64,000 bases of DNA from positions 558,001 to 622,000 of the forward strand of contig NZ_VOLO01000001.1 of NCBI RefSeq assembly GCF_007954365.1, written 5' to 3'. Source of the DNA: Frigoribacterium sp. ACAM 257 (GTDB taxonomy: Bacteria; Actinomycetota; Actinomycetes; Actinomycetales; Microbacteriaceae). The notes beneath the pieces are model-generated. The model did no database searches. It worked only from the letters and a program-made list of their open reading frames with translations, and was not told the DNA's origin. Numbering within the stretch: the stretch's first letter is position 1; every line of letters begins with the position of its first letter. Positions 37,978 through 57,399 of the stretch are shown here, one piece after another. A program made the position numbers and the translations under genes.

Positions 37978-38190
37978 ACTGGGTGCATGTGAGCGCATGG
38001 AAAACCCTGTCGGCATTTCGGGGGACCCGGTAGCGTCGATCCCGTCAGCAGGCCAGCCGCCGCGGGACCCGAACCCCGCGAGCCCGGCGCCCGCGGACGG
38101 CGTCGTCGGACCCGAACCCCACGACGCGGCACTGCCCCGACACTCGTCACCCCGGACCGGACGCGCAAGGCTCGGCCCCAGGGCGACGTT
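37978..38190 (+). promoter_or_regulatory. Promoter plus ~180-nt leader of the SipW/TasA-like operon (element copy A)
   Basis: The 356-nt gap before 38221 holds a promoter with -35 CTGTCG (38007-38012), an 18-nt spacer and -10 TAGCGT (38031-38036), preceded by an ATG-N6-CAT half-palindrome (37987-37998). A GC-rich leader follows with a 13-nt direct repeat GGACCCGAACCCC at 38065-38077 and 38108-38120. The element from 37978 to about 38190 is homologous by eye to 40943-41140 (copy B). The leader is long enough for a structured regulatory RNA. The ~110 nt before 37978 next to the glgE start show nothing else I recognise. Confidence 0.6.
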
Positions 38191-38220
38191 CGACGCGCCT
38201 GGGCGCGGACAGGACAGATC

Positions 38221-38784
38221 ATGAACACCTTCGTCAAGAGCGCCGTCGCCGGCGCGGCCGGCGTCGCCCTCCTCCTCGGGGGCGCGGGCACCTTCGCCGT
38301 CTGGAACAGCAGCGCGAGCGCCTCGGCGGGCGTGCTGCAGACGGGCCAGCTCGCCCTCTCGACCGTGGCCGGGTCCGGCCAGTGGAAGGACCTGAAGACC
38401 GGGTCGGTGCTGAGCGCCGCCGAGCTCCCGTCGTACCGGATGATCCCCGGCACGCAGCTCGAGTACACGGTGCCCGTCACGGTGACGGCCACGGGGACCG
38501 GGCTGAAGGCCGTCTTCTCGTACGACCTCGGCGCCACGTCGAGCACGCTCACGAGCGTCGTCCCCGCCCTGACCGTGCAGAAGAGCCGCACCGACGCGGG
38601 CCTGCCGGCCGGCTTCACGGCCGTCAGCGGCAAGGCGAACTCCTTCTCCGTCACGCCGTCGGCCACGAGCACCGACGCCGTCGCGCGCCTCGGGATCACC
38701 GTGCCGACCGACGCCGACAACAGCACCCAGAACAAGACCCTCGACCTCAGCAAGGTCGTCTTCACGCTGACGCAGGTCGAGTAG
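38221..38784 (+). CDS. SipW-dependent alternate-signal exported protein (TasA/camelysin-like), first gene
   Basis: 187 residues. The N-terminus is a SipW-type signal: hydrophobic 8-23, then GTFAVWNSSASAS (23-35), followed by VLQTGQLALS resembling the start of mature TasA. The rest is a Ser/Thr/Val-rich beta-type domain (about 40-187) without cysteines. TasA-like proteins are cut by a SipW signal peptidase and assemble into extracellular fibres. Here the matching peptidase is three genes downstream in the same operon. ATG start with GGACAGGAC upstream. Fibre formation is inference; it may instead be a soluble surface protein. Confidence 0.82.
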   Translation: MNTFVKSAVAGAAGVALLLGGAGTFAVWNSSASASAGVLQTGQLALSTVAGSGQWKDLKTGSVLSAAELPSYRMIPGTQLEYTVPVTVTATGTGLKAVFSYDLGATSSTLTSVVPALTVQKSRTDAGLPAGFTAVSGKANSFSVTPSATSTDAVARLGITVPTDADNSTQNKTLDLSKVVFTLTQVE

Positions 38785-38798
38785 CGGGAGGCCCGTCC

Positions 38799-39404
38799 GT
38801 GCATCACAGCCCACGTCGCACCGCACGTCACGCCGCTCCGCGGCGCGGCGTGCTGCGGCGCGTGTGGACGGGCACGGCCGTGCTGGGCGGGGCCGTCGCG
38901 CTCGGGCTCGCCGCGACCGGCGGGTCGTACGCGCTCTGGAGCTCGTCCGCTCCCGGTCGGACGACCGGGATCGTGACCACCGGCACGGCCGCGCTCGCCG
39001 TGACGCAGCCGACCGGCCTGACCTCGACGGGCCTCCTTCCCGGCACGTCGGCCGTGGGCTCCTTCTCCCTCACGAATCGCGGGGTCGTTCCGTTGGCGGC
39101 GACGGTCACGACGACGGGGGCGCGGGGCATGTACGACGGCCCCGTATCCGGTGCGTCCCTGGACGAGCTCCAGCTGCGGGTGGCGGCCCGGCCAGCCGGC
39201 GGGACGTGCGCCTCGGCGCTCTCCGGGGCCGCCGCCGCCCGGCTGGTGGGGTTCCGCGCCCCGGACCTGCTGCCACGGCTCGAGCCAGGCGCCTCGGCGA
39301 CGATCTGCGTCGAGGTGCTGCTCGACGCCGACGCCCCGCAGTCCGTTCAGGGAGCCGTCGACAGCTGGTCGGTCCGCGTCGTCGGAACGCAGGTGGTGTC
39401 GTGA
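38799..39404 (+). CDS. SipW-dependent alternate-signal exported protein, second gene
   Basis: 201 residues from GTG 38799 (GGGAGG 8 nt upstream). Basic head (HHSPRRTARHAAPRRG), hydrophobic 24-41, then GSYALWSSSAPG (42-53), the SipW-type signal. The mature part begins with TTGTAALAVTQPTG and contains LLPGTSAVGSFSLTNRGVVPL, which matches the TasA/camelysin pattern of LxPG followed by NxG. Two cysteines (GGTCASAL, ATICVEVLLD) may form a disulfide. Its stop overlaps the next GTG (GTGTCGTGA), coupling translation. Confidence 0.8.
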   Translation: MHHSPRRTARHAAPRRGVLRRVWTGTAVLGGAVALGLAATGGSYALWSSSAPGRTTGIVTTGTAALAVTQPTGLTSTGLLPGTSAVGSFSLTNRGVVPLAATVTTTGARGMYDGPVSGASLDELQLRVAARPAGGTCASALSGAAAARLVGFRAPDLLPRLEPGASATICVEVLLDADAPQSVQGAVDSWSVRVVGTQVVS

Positions 39405-40324
39405 GCGGGCGCGTCGCGCGGCGACGTGCGCTCGGGCGCGGCGCCGTGCTCGTCGCCCTCGTCGTGGCCCTCGTGGGCACCGGGACGGGCACGGGCTGGG
39501 CTCTCTGGACCGCCACCGTCGACGCCGCCTCGCAGACGACGTTCGCCAAGGTCGACCTCGAGCTCGAGTCGTCGAGCCCCCGCGCCGTCGACTACACGGC
39601 CGTGGGCCAGTCCGTGACGACCGCGGTCACGATCTACAGCGGCGGCACGGTGCCGGCGGACTACCGGCTGTCGGTCGTGGTGGGGACGACGGGCGCCGTC
39701 TCGGCCGACCTGCCCGCTCGCGTCGACGTGCAGGCCTGGCCGGCGACCACCGCCTCCTGCACCTCGGCCGTCCCGCCGGACGCGATCGGCGGCACGTGGG
39801 CGTCGGCGCCGGTCGCGACGGGGACCGTGGCCGCCTCGAGCAGGGTGACCTGGTGCTATCGCTCGACCGTCTCCTCCTCGGCCCCCGACAAGGCCACGGT
39901 CAACCCGAGGTTCGAGGTCGTCGGCGGCTCGCACGGCTGGACCGACCGGGCCAGCATCCAGGACTTCTACCAGAACACCCGGTTCGCGAGCCCGGCGCCG
40001 ACGGCCCGTGCGCTCAGCTGTGGGACCACGGACACCGGCGACGGGACCTCGTTCGCGACGGTCTCGTGGGACGCCCCGCTCGACTCCGACCAGTGGGGCC
40101 TGTTCGTCGCCGGGCAGCGGGTGGGGAACACCGTGTCGGGCCAGGCACCGACGAAGGAGCACGTCGTGACGCGCGACCACGTGCCCGCCTCGCTCGTGCC
40201 CGACGGCCGTGTGACGGTCGACGTGCGGTCGGTCGCGGGCGCCGAGCCGGGACCGGTCGCCTGGACGGGGGCGGTCGTCGTCGGGCCCAACGCCCAGGGG
40301 CAGCGACAGGTGTCGTGCCCGTGA
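39401..40324 (+). CDS. SipW-dependent alternate-signal exported protein, third and largest gene
   Basis: 307 residues. Arginine-rich head, hydrophobic 14-28, then TGWALWTATVD (31-41) as alternate signal. The mature part has a TasA-like start (TFAKVDLELESSS, VGQSVTTAVTIYSGGTVPADY). An additional C-terminal domain (about 195-307) resembles a fibronectin-III/Ig-like fold in its pattern (ATVSWDAPLDSDQWGLFVAG, VTVDVRSVAGAEPG). It may be the adhesive or capping component, which is inference. Several cysteines. GTG start and stop both overlap the neighbouring genes. Confidence 0.78.
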   Translation: MSGRVARRRALGRGAVLVALVVALVGTGTGTGWALWTATVDAASQTTFAKVDLELESSSPRAVDYTAVGQSVTTAVTIYSGGTVPADYRLSVVVGTTGAVSADLPARVDVQAWPATTASCTSAVPPDAIGGTWASAPVATGTVAASSRVTWCYRSTVSSSAPDKATVNPRFEVVGGSHGWTDRASIQDFYQNTRFASPAPTARALSCGTTDTGDGTSFATVSWDAPLDSDQWGLFVAGQRVGNTVSGQAPTKEHVVTRDHVPASLVPDGRVTVDVRSVAGAEPGPVAWTGAVVVGPNAQGQRQVSCP

Positions 40325-40935
40325 GCGCGGATGCCGGGACAGCGGCCGGGGCTGGCGCCCCCGACGGTGGACGTGGCCTGCTCGGGGCGCTGCTCCTCGG
40401 CCTCAGCGTCGGCGTGCTGGGCCTCGTCGTCGGGCTCGCCGCTCTGCTCGTCGTCGTCCCGAAGGCCACGGGGTCGACGCCGCTCACCGTGCTGACGAGC
40501 TCGATGGAGCCGACCTTCCCGCCCGGCACGCTGCTCGTCGTGCGGCCCGTCGACACCGATCTGGTCGAGCCGGGCGACGTGCTGACGTACCAGGTCGAGT
40601 CCGGCGAGGCGGCGGTCGTCACCCACCGGGTGGTCGAGGTCGTGTCGTCGTCCGACGGCACGCGCTCGTTCGTGATGCGCGGCGACGCCAACGGCAGCGT
40701 CGACGCCGACCCGGTCATGCCCGTGCAGGTGAGGGGCGCCGTCTGGTACAGCCTGCCGCTCGTCGGCTGGGTCGCCCAGGCCGTGGGCGGCGAGGGTCGT
40801 GGCTGGGTCGCCACCGCCGTCGGCGTCGCCCTCTGCCTCTACTCGGTCGCGGCGCTCACCGTGGGGGTCCGGCGCAGGAGGCGCGCCAGGGCAGGCAGGA
40901 CGGGCCGCGGCCGGAGGACCGCCGGCGCGCGCTGA
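40321..40935 (+). CDS. SipW/ER-type signal peptidase I
   Basis: 204 residues. Membrane helix at about 19-45, catalytic Ser61 in LTSSMEPTFPPGT, the motif EPGDVLTYQ, His102 in VVTHRVVEV (histidine in place of the Lys of ordinary LepB, diagnostic of the archaeal/ER/SipW class), and Asp in VMRGDANGSVD. A second helix lies at 162-183 followed by a basic tail. Dedicated processing of the three upstream alternate-signal proteins is expected, as SipW does for TasA in Bacillus. GTG start overlaps the preceding stop (GTGA). No terminator directly follows. Confidence 0.9.
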   Translation: MSADAGTAAGAGAPDGGRGLLGALLLGLSVGVLGLVVGLAALLVVVPKATGSTPLTVLTSSMEPTFPPGTLLVVRPVDTDLVEPGDVLTYQVESGEAAVVTHRVVEVVSSSDGTRSFVMRGDANGSVDADPVMPVQVRGAVWYSLPLVGWVAQAVGGEGRGWVATAVGVALCLYSVAALTVGVRRRRRARAGRTGRGRRTAGAR

Positions 40936-40942
40936 CCCCTCA

Positions 40943-41140
40943 ACTGGGTGGATGCAGTTGCATCGAGATGCCTTGTCCGCCATCAGGGGGACCGGTAAAG
41001 TCGGACACGTCGACGCGGCCTGCCCGCCCGGGGTGCGATCCGCCCCGAGAGCCCGGCGCCCTCGACACGCTCGTCAGCACGACGGGCACCGTCCTGCCGT
41101 CACCCCGGTCGATCGCCGTGGGTGCCGCCCCAGGACGCTG
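40943..41140 (+). promoter_or_regulatory. Orphan second copy (B) of the SipW-operon promoter-leader element
   Basis: Aligned by eye with 37978-38190. Shared blocks include ACTGGGTG, ATG...GCAT, TGTC, GGGGGACC, GGTA..GTCG, GAGCCCGGCGCCC, ACGACG.GGCAC, CGTCACCCCGG and GCCCCAGG. The promoter has -35 TTGTCC (40973-40978), a 17-nt spacer and -10 TAAAGT (40996-41001), better than copy A. Upstream is a perfect palindrome GATGCA-GT-TGCATC (40951-40964). No plus-strand gene follows; the next gene (41325) is on the other strand. Confidence 0.6.
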
Positions 41141-41288
41141 CTGCAGCGCGCCCGGACCCGGCCCGAACCGGTCCGGTCGCCGGCAGCGGTCCGTCGTGCC
41201 CCGAGCGGACGGCACGCCTCCGTGCGCCCGTACCGCGCAGCACGGAGCCCCGCTCGGACCGCGCCGTGGCGCGGTCCGAGCGGGGCTC
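41008..41288 (+). ncRNA. Candidate orphan non-coding RNA from element copy B
   Basis: A transcript from the TAAAGT promoter would start near 41008 and end at the 19-21-bp hairpin 41245-41288, giving about 280 nt. It contains an 8-bp hairpin (CTCCGTGC/GCACGGAG, 41218-41247) just before the terminator. No ORF with a ribosome-binding site is apparent on the plus strand. Existence of the RNA is inferred from promoter, homology to a leader and terminator; no expression evidence is available. Confidence 0.4.
41245..41288. terminator. Strong bidirectional hairpin between the SipW operon region and the binding-protein gene
   Basis: Arms 41245-41263 and 41270-41288 are a perfect 19-bp repeat, extendable by 2 bp into the loop. 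On the minus strand it lies 37 nt after the binding-protein stop. Confidence 0.85.
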
Positions 41289-41324
41289 GTGGTCGCCCCC
41301 GTGAGGGGCGGCCGGTGCAGCTGG

Positions 41325-42998
41325 CTACTCGGTGAAGCCGACGATCGTCCAGTCGAGGTCCGACGCGCCGGCACGGGCGCCGTAGTTCGCGAGCGTCGGG
41401 CTCTGGGCCGAGATGAGCGGCTGCTGGATGATCGGCATCGAGTGCCCGATCTCCCAGATCGCCTCGTCGGCCTGGTTGTACAGGTCGGCCGCGGCGTCGG
41501 GGTCGCCCTCGGCCACCGCCTCGTCGAGCAGCGAGCTGATCTCGTCGCTCGAGACGCGGCCGTAGTTCTGGCCCTGCTCGTCCTGGTTGTAGATGCTGAC
41601 GCCCGACGCCTGGTAGCCGGTGCCGGCCCAGACGAAGATCGTCATGTCGTAGTTGCCGGGCGTGACGTTGTCCTCGAAGAAGGCGTCCGTGCCGACCGCG
41701 TTGATGTCGAGCTTGATGCCGACCGCGGTCAGCTGGCTCTGGATCACCTCGGCGAGCTGCTGCGACACAGGTGCCGACGAGGGGATGGTGATCGAGATGG
41801 CCAGCTGCTCGCCGTCCTTCGCACGGACGTCGCCGTCCATCTCCCAGCCCGCGTCGTCGAGGATCGCGCCAGCTTCCTCGACGTCGTAGTTCCCGGTCTC
41901 GCCCGCGTTGTCCTGGTACGCACCGTCGGTGCTGAGGTACAGGTGGTTGTTCAGCGTCGACACCTCGTAGGGCAGCGTGCCCGTGATGACCTTGCCGAGT
42001 GCGTCGCGGTCGACCGCGTGCTGGATCGCCTGGCGGACCGCCTCGTCGGCCAGCAGGCCCTTCGTGCTGAAGTCGACGTGGGTGTAGCGAGCCGAGGGGG
42101 CGGCACGGAGCTCGCTGCCGTCGGCGTCCTTGACCCGGTCGTACCGGTCCGAGGTGTTCGCGTAGACCTGGTCGATCTCGCCGTTCAGGTACGCGTCGAT
42201 GTCGGCGTCGCCGTCCAGGGCACGGAAGATCACCGTGTCGAGCTTGGGGGCGTCGCCCCACCAGTTCTCGTCGGGCACCATCGTGACGGTCTGGGCCGTC
42301 TGGTCGATCGCGTCGATCTTGTAGGGGCCGGCCGAGATCGGCACGGCGTCCACGTAGGCGGTGTTGAACGCGGTCGGGTCGTTGTAGATCTTCGCCGGGT
42401 AGAGCGGCGCGAACATCGACTTCCAGTCGGAGAAGGGCTCCGAGTACGTCACGACGACCTGCTTGTCGCTCGTGCCGGGCTCGACGCTCTCCATGCGGTC
42501 GGGGCCGAGGGTGCTGCCGACGAGGTACTCGGCGTTCGTGCCCTTGAGGGCCGTCCACCACGCCTGGAAGTCGGCGACCGTGATCGGGGTGCCGTCGTTC
42601 CACTGCGCGTCCGGGTTGATGTCGTAGGTGACGACGAGGGGGTCGTCGCTCGTGGCCTCCGCGCTCGTGACCAGGTCCTCGTCGATCTGCGGCACGCCCT
42701 CCTCGTCGATGCGGAAGGGCTGCGGCAGGATCGCGCTCTCGATCAGCGCGGCGTCGAGGAGCGCGCCGTCGAGCTGGCCGTAGTTCCACTGCGAGGGCAG
42801 CTGCGACAGCGGCAAGGTCAAGGTGCCTCCCTGCTCGACGTCGCCGGCCGCGGTCGCGTTGATGTCGCCGGTGGGGGACAGCTCGCCGTTCTTGGGGGCG
42901 GCGTCGCCGTCCTGCCCGCCTCCGCCGCTGCACGCCGTGACGACGAGAGCGAGTGCGGCGAGGCCCGCGACGACGCCGGCCTTCTTCGTGTTCTTCAT
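41325..42998 (-). CDS. Oligopeptide ABC transporter substrate-binding lipoprotein (SBP family 5)
   Basis: 557 residues. Lipoprotein signal: MKNTKKAGVVAGLAALALVV, then TAC with the lipidated Cys near 22 and a Gly-rich linker. The mature domain is a family-5 solute-binding protein (DppA/OppA type): VVTYDINPDAQWNDGTPITV, SAGPYKIDAI, AVRQAIQHAVDRDALGKVI, and ISITIPSSAPVSQQLAEVIQ. The frame is open to 43217, but ATG 42998 starts the signal peptide. A promoter TTCGCA-17 nt-TAGCGT (43139-43111, minus strand) fits. Divergent from its permease genes, so the 217-nt gap is a shared control region. Confidence 0.93.
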   Translation of the reverse strand: MKNTKKAGVVAGLAALALVVTACSGGGGQDGDAAPKNGELSPTGDINATAAGDVEQGGTLTLPLSQLPSQWNYGQLDGALLDAALIESAILPQPFRIDEEGVPQIDEDLVTSAEATSDDPLVVTYDINPDAQWNDGTPITVADFQAWWTALKGTNAEYLVGSTLGPDRMESVEPGTSDKQVVVTYSEPFSDWKSMFAPLYPAKIYNDPTAFNTAYVDAVPISAGPYKIDAIDQTAQTVTMVPDENWWGDAPKLDTVIFRALDGDADIDAYLNGEIDQVYANTSDRYDRVKDADGSELRAAPSARYTHVDFSTKGLLADEAVRQAIQHAVDRDALGKVITGTLPYEVSTLNNHLYLSTDGAYQDNAGETGNYDVEEAGAILDDAGWEMDGDVRAKDGEQLAISITIPSSAPVSQQLAEVIQSQLTAVGIKLDINAVGTDAFFEDNVTPGNYDMTIFVWAGTGYQASGVSIYNQDEQGQNYGRVSSDEISSLLDEAVAEGDPDAAADLYNQADEAIWEIGHSMPIIQQPLISAQSPTLANYGARAGASDLDWTIVGFTE

Positions 42999-43215
42999 GG
43001 CACTCCGAACTAGATGGTGTGAAAAACGCCGGTCACCCCAGTTGTCCGAGGTGCTGTCCCGCTCGGTGATCTCGAGCCGGGTCCCCCCTCGTCCGGGACC
43101 GACGAGTGCCACGCTACGGATCCGTGCACTCGATGCGAACTTTTCCGCCACTTCGTTACACGCCTGAAACGTCGTGGCACCGGTGGCCTCCGGGGTACGT
43201 CTATGTTGTTCTTCC

Positions 43216-44202
43216 ATGGCCCGCTATCTCGCGCGGCGGCTGGTGTACTACGTCGCTCTCGTCTTCCTCGCCACGTCGCTGACGTACTTCCTGGCGTCGG
43301 CGACGTTCACTCCCCGGTCCGCCTACGCCGAGCGCAACCCGCGGCCCACCGAGCAGGTGATCGACGCGAAGCTCGACTCGATCGGCGTCAACGACAAGGT
43401 GCCCGTGGTCGAGCGGTACGCCTCCTGGCTCGGCGGCGCCGTCACCGGCGACCTCGGCAGGACCATCCAGGACAAGCCGGTGGACACCGAGTTCTGGCCG
43501 CGTCTCGGGGTCAGCCTCCGCCTCCTGCTCGCGGGCTCCGTGATCGGCATCGTCCTCGCCATCGCCGTGGGCACCTGGAACGCGATCCGTCAGTACAAGC
43601 TGTCCGACCGGGTCTCCGCGATCCTCTCCTTCGTCCTCATCTCGACCCCGGTGTTCCTCTCCGCCGTGCTGCTGAAGATCGGCGCGACGCAGCTCAACAG
43701 CGTGCTCGGCTTCCAGCTGATCAGCTTCACGGGCGAGGCCACGCCGGGGCTCGGGGGCGGCTTCGCGACCGTCCTCGGCGACCGTGCGGTGCACCTCCTG
43801 CTGCCCACCATCTCGATCGCCGCGGGGCTGATCGCGATCTACAGCCGGTACCAGCGGTCGACGATGCTCGACGTGCTGCAGGCGGACTTCATCCGGACCG
43901 CCAGGGCGAAGGGCCTCCGGAGGCGCCCCGCCATCGTCAAGCACGGCCTGCGGACCGCATTGATCCCCATGACGACGCTCTTCGCCTTCGCGTTCCTCGG
44001 CGTGCTGACCGGCGCCACCTTCACCGAGAAGATCTTCGGCTGGAACGGCCTCGGCGCCTGGTTCATCGACGCCGTGCAGGGCAACGACGTGAACGTCGTC
44101 GTCGCGTACACGCTCTACAGCGCCGTCGTCGTGCTCTTCGCCGGCTTCGTCAGCGACGTGCTGAACGCCGTCCTCGACCCGCGCGTGCGCAGCCAGAAGT
44201 AA
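43216..44202 (+). CDS. Oligopeptide ABC transporter permease, DppB-like
   Basis: 328 residues, 6 membrane helices. N-terminal ARYLARRLVYYVALVFLATS, the long periplasmic segment typical of DppB/OppB (about 30-95), and the EAA loop ADFIRTARAKGLRRRPAIVKHGLRTALIP (about 215-243) that contacts the ATPase. ATG 43216 lies 8 nt after TATGTT (43202-43207), suggesting a leaderless transcript. First gene of permease-permease-ATPase, each 5-12 nt apart or overlapping. Confidence 0.92.
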   Translation: MARYLARRLVYYVALVFLATSLTYFLASATFTPRSAYAERNPRPTEQVIDAKLDSIGVNDKVPVVERYASWLGGAVTGDLGRTIQDKPVDTEFWPRLGVSLRLLLAGSVIGIVLAIAVGTWNAIRQYKLSDRVSAILSFVLISTPVFLSAVLLKIGATQLNSVLGFQLISFTGEATPGLGGGFATVLGDRAVHLLLPTISIAAGLIAIYSRYQRSTMLDVLQADFIRTARAKGLRRRPAIVKHGLRTALIPMTTLFAFAFLGVLTGATFTEKIFGWNGLGAWFIDAVQGNDVNVVVAYTLYSAVVVLFAGFVSDVLNAVLDPRVRSQK

Positions 44203-57021: not shown

Positions 57022-57399
57022 GGGGATGATCGGTTTCGACATCGCCTGTGTGCGAACGAGAAGCGGGCCGAGGATCCAGGGTTATCTCGTAAACGATCTC
57101 TGGAAAACAATAAGTGCCAATAACAAGCGCACTGACTTCGCTCTCGCTGCGTAAGCAGTAGAGCCACATGGAGTCCGTCAGTCTGGTGACCGCCTTCTAA
57201 CCAGAGCCTGACGTCATCTAGAGGGCTTGCTGCGTGACTACGCCTGAGGGCCACGCGGGACTCGAACTCGGGCTGGGCCCGTCGACCTAGAAGCCAGTAG
57301 CAAAGGTCGGGGCCGAGTAGAACGTCTCATCTGGCTACGCCCGTAGAATGCGTGCAATCTCAGCGATGGACGGGGGTTCAATTCCCCCCATCTCCACCA
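57022..57399 (+). ncRNA. ssrA: Transfer-messenger RNA (tmRNA)
   Basis: 378 nt. The 5' end GGGGATGATCGGTTTCGAC and the 3' end (GGGGGTTCAATTCCCCCC T-arm, then CATCTCCACCA) form the tRNA-like domain: GGGGATG pairs with CATCTCC, discriminator A, CCA encoded. The tag reading frame starts at the resume codon GCC 57116 and reads ANNKRTDFALAA, ending TAA 57152-57154. The C-terminal FALAA fits the proteolysis degron of actinobacterial tags. The remaining pseudoknot region has several stems. Followed by a strong terminator. Confidence 0.96.

Follow-up and report, generated by a model that had tools for sequence, protein, structure and literature searches.

A candidate regulatory RNA family shared by the leader of a SipW-type operon and a predicted small RNA beside glgE in Frigoribacterium

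The locus and its repeated element

A four-gene operon of the SipW type and the repeated element on its two sides were analysed in Frigoribacterium sp. ACAM 257, within a window (the whole stretch of DNA under analysis) of 64,000 nucleotides (nt) from contig NZ_VOLO01000001.1. An earlier note on this sequence had described the element as a promoter-leader duplicated on both sides of the operon and had proposed a regulatory RNA family with a shared operator, specific to this surface system. The operon is placed between glgE, which is divergent, and a convergent gene for a solute-binding protein (Table 1). Copy A of the element is the 5' leader of the operon, while copy B starts directly 3' of the signal peptidase gene sipW, in the same orientation and with no same-strand gene downstream. 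When compared with the Bacillus SipW model NF046067, sipW scored 68.2 bits, under the cutoff of 190.

Table 1. Features of the SipW/glgE locus, in positions of the window
Feature	Position	Strand	Remarks
glgE	start 37864	minus	divergent from operon; GlgE domains
Copy A, operator-like inverted repeat ATGTGAGCGCAT	37987-37998	plus	one change from ATGC-N4-GCAT; centred 38 bp ahead of the -10-like box
Copy A, promoter (predicted)	38007-38036	plus	CTGTCG, -35-like; spacer 18; GGGGGACC at 38020-38027; TAGCGT, -10-like, at 38031-38036
Copy A, 5'-terminal RNA domain (predicted)	38044-38098	plus	in operon leader; 44.1 bits
Operon gene 1, alternate-type (SipW-dependent) signal peptide protein	38221-38784	plus	TIGR04089, 110.5 bits (cutoff 60)
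Operon gene 2	38799-39404	plus	GTG start; resembles camelysin below threshold (Peptidase_M73, 20.0 bits, cutoff 22.5)
Operon gene 3	39401-40324	plus	GTG start; no family match above cutoff
Operon gene 4, SipW-like signal peptidase (sipW)	40321-40935	plus	TIGR02228 above cutoff
Copy B, perfect inverted repeat GATGCA-GT-TGCATC	40951-40964	plus	
Copy B, promoter (predicted)	40973-41001	plus	TTGTCC; spacer 17 with GGGGGACC at 40986-40993; TAAAGT at 40996-41001
Copy B, proposed small RNA	41008-41179	plus	about 172 nt, with predicted ends; relatives share no open frame with it
Copy B, 5'-terminal RNA domain (predicted)	41009-41066	plus	P1 / GGC-GCC / CU bulge / GCC-GGC / C and CC bulges / GC-GC / A-bulged P3 hairpin
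Copy B, 3' hairpin CCGGACC..GGTCCGG	41152-41176	plus	terminator-like end of the proposed small RNA, lacking a T run; base pairs exchanged in G001 and G010
Solute-binding protein gene	41325-43217	minus	convergent; next gene after copy B

Local alignment of 37978-38190 (A) with 40943-41140 (B) gave a score of 61, which lies above all of 1000 dinucleotide shuffles of B (mean 21.3, standard deviation (sd) 3.1, maximum 35); same-length stretches from both strands of the window, with A and B excluded, reached at most 39 (n = 2086). The resemblance noted earlier, for which alignment against shuffled controls had been proposed as the check, is borne out. The segment 3' of the -10-like box alone scored 41 (1000 shuffles: mean 22.9, sd 3.7, maximum 39) and, being above the shuffle maximum, shows that the likeness of A and B extends beyond the promoter. 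A strict promoter core pattern, GGGGGACCN{0,1}GGTANNGTCG, has two matches in the genome, A and B. Another contig holds a 39-base match to copy A with an expectation value (E) of 3.2e-4. The same module, comprising an operator-like inverted repeat, a predicted promoter and a predicted structured RNA domain of about 58 nt, is present twice, as A and as B.

Distribution in the genus and beyond

The comparison covered 16 Frigoribacterium genomes (G000-G015, G000 being the genome of the window), all of which have a signal-peptidase match to sipW, weak in three of them; 20 sipW loci were read for their leaders and for the space after sipW. In G004, G005 and G006 (loci L011, L016 and L017) the sipW match crosses one TGA, where it perhaps merely extends before the start codon. 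The homology search of related genomes that the earlier note had called for was carried out with covariance model R1 and found 22 copies in 16 out of 16 genomes (E ≤ 4.1e-5; next match 0.009). Copy A, the operon and copy B occur together in six genomes (G000, G002, G003, G007, G014 and G015), A and the operon are found with no B in seven (G004, on two contigs, G005, G006, G008, G009, G011 and G013), and G001, G010 and G012 have only a B-type copy, flanked by glgE and a small convergent gene, and lack a SipW operon there. Duplication on both sides of the operon hence holds for six of the 16 genomes and not for the seven with the leader only or the three with B alone.

The module adjoins glgE in every genome, whereas only 13 of the 16 have the operon there; the module beside glgE is therefore the constant and the operon the variable. 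What follows B differs as well: G000, G003 and G015 have the solute-binding protein gene and the remaining B genomes other sequence, so that B is not tied to its downstream neighbour. Since B is kept in three genomes that lack the operon, and since the constant neighbour is glgE, the proposed specificity for the surface system is unsupported.

A second, more distant SipW-type operon is found in G009, G004 and G014 (L047, L048 and L049, upstream of the operon). It has a different leader, also well conserved, in which the inverted repeats CCGGTGG..CCACCGG and TGCCGC..GCGGCA were identified by eye, making it a second candidate leader RNA.

Outside the genus, R1 was run with stricter filters over 398 genomes of the family and gave matches in ten, all of the same genus, and R2 over 40 family genomes gave matches in two, again of the same genus. 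On glgE loci of other genera, available for 28 of the 47 glgE matches from outside the genus, R2 run unfiltered scored 17.5 bits at best. A search of genome contigs with the core pattern returned 90 stretches, of which 80 were scored and ten non-Frigoribacterium ones (L172-L181) were left unscored; among the 80, matches of at least 54.8 bits numbered 15, in 13 loci, all Frigoribacterium. The best non-genus stretch among those scored (L127, 39.7 bits) lies within long open frames. The scores of non-genus loci are inflated because they were picked by the core pattern. Three weaker model matches (L089, L090 and L091) are likewise inside long open frames and were read as chance. The core pattern had no match in viral contigs. 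None of these searches turned up the domain in another genus. As an exact pattern it misses copies with altered core letters, and more distant forms could escape it.

Promoter and operator-like site

The form TTGTC[C/G]-N17-TANNGT is found in 9/9 B copies. The A copies depart further from it, with CTGTCG at a spacer of 18 in 10/13 and other variants at a spacer of 17 in 3/13. The sequence GGGGGACC, previously taken for the -35 box, sits in the spacer of this promoter.

The perfect inverted repeat GATGCA-GT-TGCATC reported for copy B is present as described. In 18 of the 22 copies (12/13 A and 6/9 B) its general form, ATGC-N4-GCAT with at most one mismatch, occurs 37-38 bp ahead of the -10-like box; the other four copies lack it. 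When an upstream pattern was searched for with at most one mismatch, 21 matches appeared in 13 of the 16 genus genomes; nine of them are exact, all at the SipW/glgE locus, whereas the six that lie elsewhere each carry a mismatch, and no second locus with an exact match was found in the 16 genomes. All 12 genus matches to a promoter pattern (at most three mismatches) are at the SipW/glgE locus. These results leave no visible regulon from which a regulator could be named. The operator-like site thus seems confined to the SipW/glgE locus, where it could be bound by an activator or a repressor.

Structure and conservation of the RNA domain

The domain is predicted to be a single long irregular hairpin, running from an outer helix (P1) to an A-bulged inner hairpin (P3), with a two-base bulge that is CU in most copies. 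P1 starts 7 nt past the end of the -10-like box in 20 of the 22 copies, and in the remaining two the gap is 6 nt, which places the domain at the 5' end of the predicted transcript.

The sequences of P1 and P3 vary between copies while the pairing is kept. Matched halves of P1 paired at -5.48 kcal/mol compared with -3.53 kcal/mol for swapped halves (12 distinct; equalled by 2 of 20000 permutations), and those of P3 at -9.02 compared with -5.94 kcal/mol (13 distinct; equalled by 0 of 20000). In the alignment fitted to the model, which has 15 distinct rows, pairing held in 88.9% of cells, against 82.7% when shuffled and 32.5-45.0% in slid registers, and cells with double changes numbered 19 where shuffling gave 5.7. 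New P3 sequences that still pair are added by G010 and G001, both absent from the alignment on which the model was built. The earlier suggestion that conservation past the -10 box means that the RNA itself matters is supported by these compensating changes in two helices. As to the loops, ACCCGAA recurs in that of P3 in most A copies, and CCCGAA is the loop of the 3' hairpin in most B copies.

When five pairs of B copies were compared, two 12-nt core blocks of the domain were 0.92-1.00 identical, compared with 0.60-0.71 at fourfold sites of glgE. In the same pairs the middle of the RNA was 0.31-0.42 identical and the 3' hairpin 0.74-1.00. Among the leader blocks listed in the earlier note, GAGCCCGGCGCCC lies in a conserved domain, while CGTCACCCCGG and GCCCCAGG fall in the poorly conserved middle.

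Copy A of the window is the lowest-scoring of the 22 copies and has TAGCGT as its -10-like box. As its domain is also not formed in the minimum-energy fold, B may be the working copy in this genome. In the same leader two adjacent inverted repeats, at 38061-38080 and 38101-38126, both enclose ACCCGAAC.

Copy B as a small RNA

The earlier reading of copy B as a promoter-leader does not fit its surroundings, as there is no same-strand gene behind it and the next gene is convergent; a small-RNA gene in its own right is the better reading. It has a predicted promoter and a terminator-like hairpin of its own, and the predicted RNA is 172-198 nt long across nine genomes, with no open frame common to the nine, for which reason a coding role was rejected. 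The 3' hairpin pattern was matched exactly in eight genomes, all carriers of B, and in the ninth carrier (G010) it is replaced by a compensated variant. Taken together, these features suggest that copy B is probably a free-standing small RNA. Between copy B and the solute-binding protein gene, at 41247-41290, there is also a long near-perfect GC-rich inverted repeat, perhaps a terminator.

Interpretation and alternatives

With 22 copies in 16 genomes and compensating changes in two helices, the element very probably represents a regulatory RNA family, and to this extent the proposal of such a family together with a shared operator was well founded. The explanation that we favour, giving it about an even chance of being correct, is that the module is used on both a leader and a small RNA, that the two have a factor in common, and that B acts in trans. 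Related control would govern the A and B transcripts, and their conserved bulged helix would be the recognition site for a putative factor, either a protein or another ligand. In the likeliest mechanism B would act in trans through this helix, drawing the factor away from the operon leader as a decoy or mimic; the step from shared factor to decoy is tentative. In genomes without the operon B might instead serve other targets of the factor.

A more specific form of this explanation, which we consider doubtful, would make B a genus-specific small RNA that mimics the leader of a SipW/TasA-like surface-fibre operon. The RNA would have occupied the glgE locus first, and the operon would have taken over its promoter and tip as control parts already in place. 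Twin promoters would then yield two transcripts showing the same bulged 5'-terminal helix to a putative RNA-binding factor, and the free copy would tune or insulate the operon.

Several results weigh against the favoured explanation. The structural support is uneven, as further pair types (15, compared with 13.2 when shuffled) were as numerous in 88 of 500 shuffles, and the seven pairs with double changes were equalled in 19 of 500. RNAalifold, when applied to the first, unadjusted MAFFT alignment of 17 copies, gave eight pairs and no covariation, which we attribute to the differing lengths of P1 and P3 between rows; the covariation support is drawn from alignments that were trimmed or fitted to the model and are thereby biased in favour of the structure. 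The fold energies are ordinary (z from -2.05 to +0.36 in six domains, -1.27 for B and -0.22 for A of the window), and the domain is absent from the minimum-energy fold in two of the 13 A leaders (G000 and G013) and in one of the nine B RNAs (G007). As regards B, its transcript start, end and abundance were inferred from sequence, and the 3' hairpin, lacking a T run, was not called by a terminator scan. Pairing between B and A in six genomes did not go beyond shuffles, 2, 10, 14, 2, 8 and 5 of 20 being as good, and antisense action of B on A was rejected. Finally, three genomes have B with no operon at the site, so acting on the operon cannot be the sole role of B.

The 5'-terminal domain might be a mere end cap, used on two transcripts and without any partner, that shields the transcripts from 5'-dependent decay. 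Its start 6-7 nt after the -10-like box in all 22 copies, at the predicted 5' end, and the upkeep of P1 by compensation agree with such a role. An end cap would need stability rather than a given sequence, yet the paired core and its bulges are near letter-invariant while the stability is ordinary for the composition, which makes this alternative of limited likelihood.

Aptamers typically show an invariant bulged core flanked by covarying helices, and the domain has this look. It could accordingly be a small-molecule aptamer acting riboswitch-like in cis on the leader, with B as a second, solo aptamer. We find this unlikely, because no common expression platform was seen by eye in the predicted folds of the 13 A leaders, because B controls no same-strand gene, and because no riboswitch appeared among the sub-threshold Rfam matches and no family at gathering score.

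That B is a functionless relic, left over either as the leader of an operon copy since lost or from the deletion of the operon, is brought up by G012. This operon-less genome is nested among operon carriers on the glgE tree, the base of which is weakly supported and on which the three states need three changes. Its flank on the glgE side resembles that of A in the window, while its operator, RNA and downstream sequence resemble those of B, a mixture that fits a deletion of A with the operon or their never having arrived. Against a relic stand the promoter form kept in every B copy, the near-invariant core and the 3' hairpin with its exchanged pairs, all retained despite fourfold sites that are 60-71% identical, and on balance we judge it quite improbable.

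A likeness at the level of DNA, as a duplicated promoter and operator or as direct repeats moving an operon cassette, would suit the operator-like site and promoter within the repeat and the absence of the operon from three of 16 genomes, of which one branches among the carriers, but it is very unlikely given that compensating changes in P1 and P3 are not expected from it, that none of the four genes between the copies resembles a recombinase, and that the switch from A-like to B-like flank in G012, as read from alignments, precedes the operator and is not inside the RNA part of the repeat.

Comparison with known systems

When the element was compared with Rfam 15 no family was found at gathering score, and the sub-threshold matches were only to eukaryotic microRNAs and long non-coding RNAs. 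The sole match at gathering level within the window is a transfer-messenger RNA gene at 57022-57399. A literature search over titles and the starts of abstracts, with subscription papers and preprints outside its range, gave no description of the A/B RNA and no work on RNA-level control of SipW-type surface proteins in an actinobacterium. We take the A/B element to be a new RNA family of a general kind already known, the twin arrangement of leader and small RNA being the unusual part.

In the SipW/TasA system of Bacillus, surface-protein genes are accompanied by a dedicated SipW-type signal peptidase, as they are in the operon of Frigoribacterium; its control scheme is not known to include a leader RNA or a twin small RNA. 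If the favoured explanation is correct, the module would give SipW-type surface proteins of an actinobacterium a point of RNA-level control that can be tested. The genus offers natural variants with both copies, with the leader only and with the small RNA only, so that a comparison of strains can show what each copy does.

Among the RNAs of actinobacteria, 6C RNA, likewise a C-rich small RNA, has loops with at least six C. The longest run of C in the 22 transcripts is five and there was no Rfam match at threshold, for which reasons identity with 6C RNA was rejected. The ANTAR-target RNAs are also structured elements of actinobacterial leaders and consist of two hexaloop hairpins with A1 and G4 (PMC8164766). 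Tandem hexaloops of this type, with stems of at least four pairs, were found in 0/22 transcripts, and this identity was rejected too.

The nearest worked-out case is EutX/Rli55 of Enterococcus and Listeria, where a non-coding RNA with a binding site for EutV sequesters this protein, the controller of an operon (PMC5821096). Copy B resembles it in sharing an element with a nearby mRNA leader, and the element would, by analogy, be the part that is bound. In EutX/Rli55 the site bound by EutV is a dual hairpin, and a cobalamin riboswitch forms part of the RNA, whereas the element described here has no match to a riboswitch family. A further difference is that the two Frigoribacterium copies have both a promoter and a 5'-terminal domain in common. 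The A/B element is not a member of that system, as none of the 22 transcripts has the ANTAR-type tandem hexaloops.

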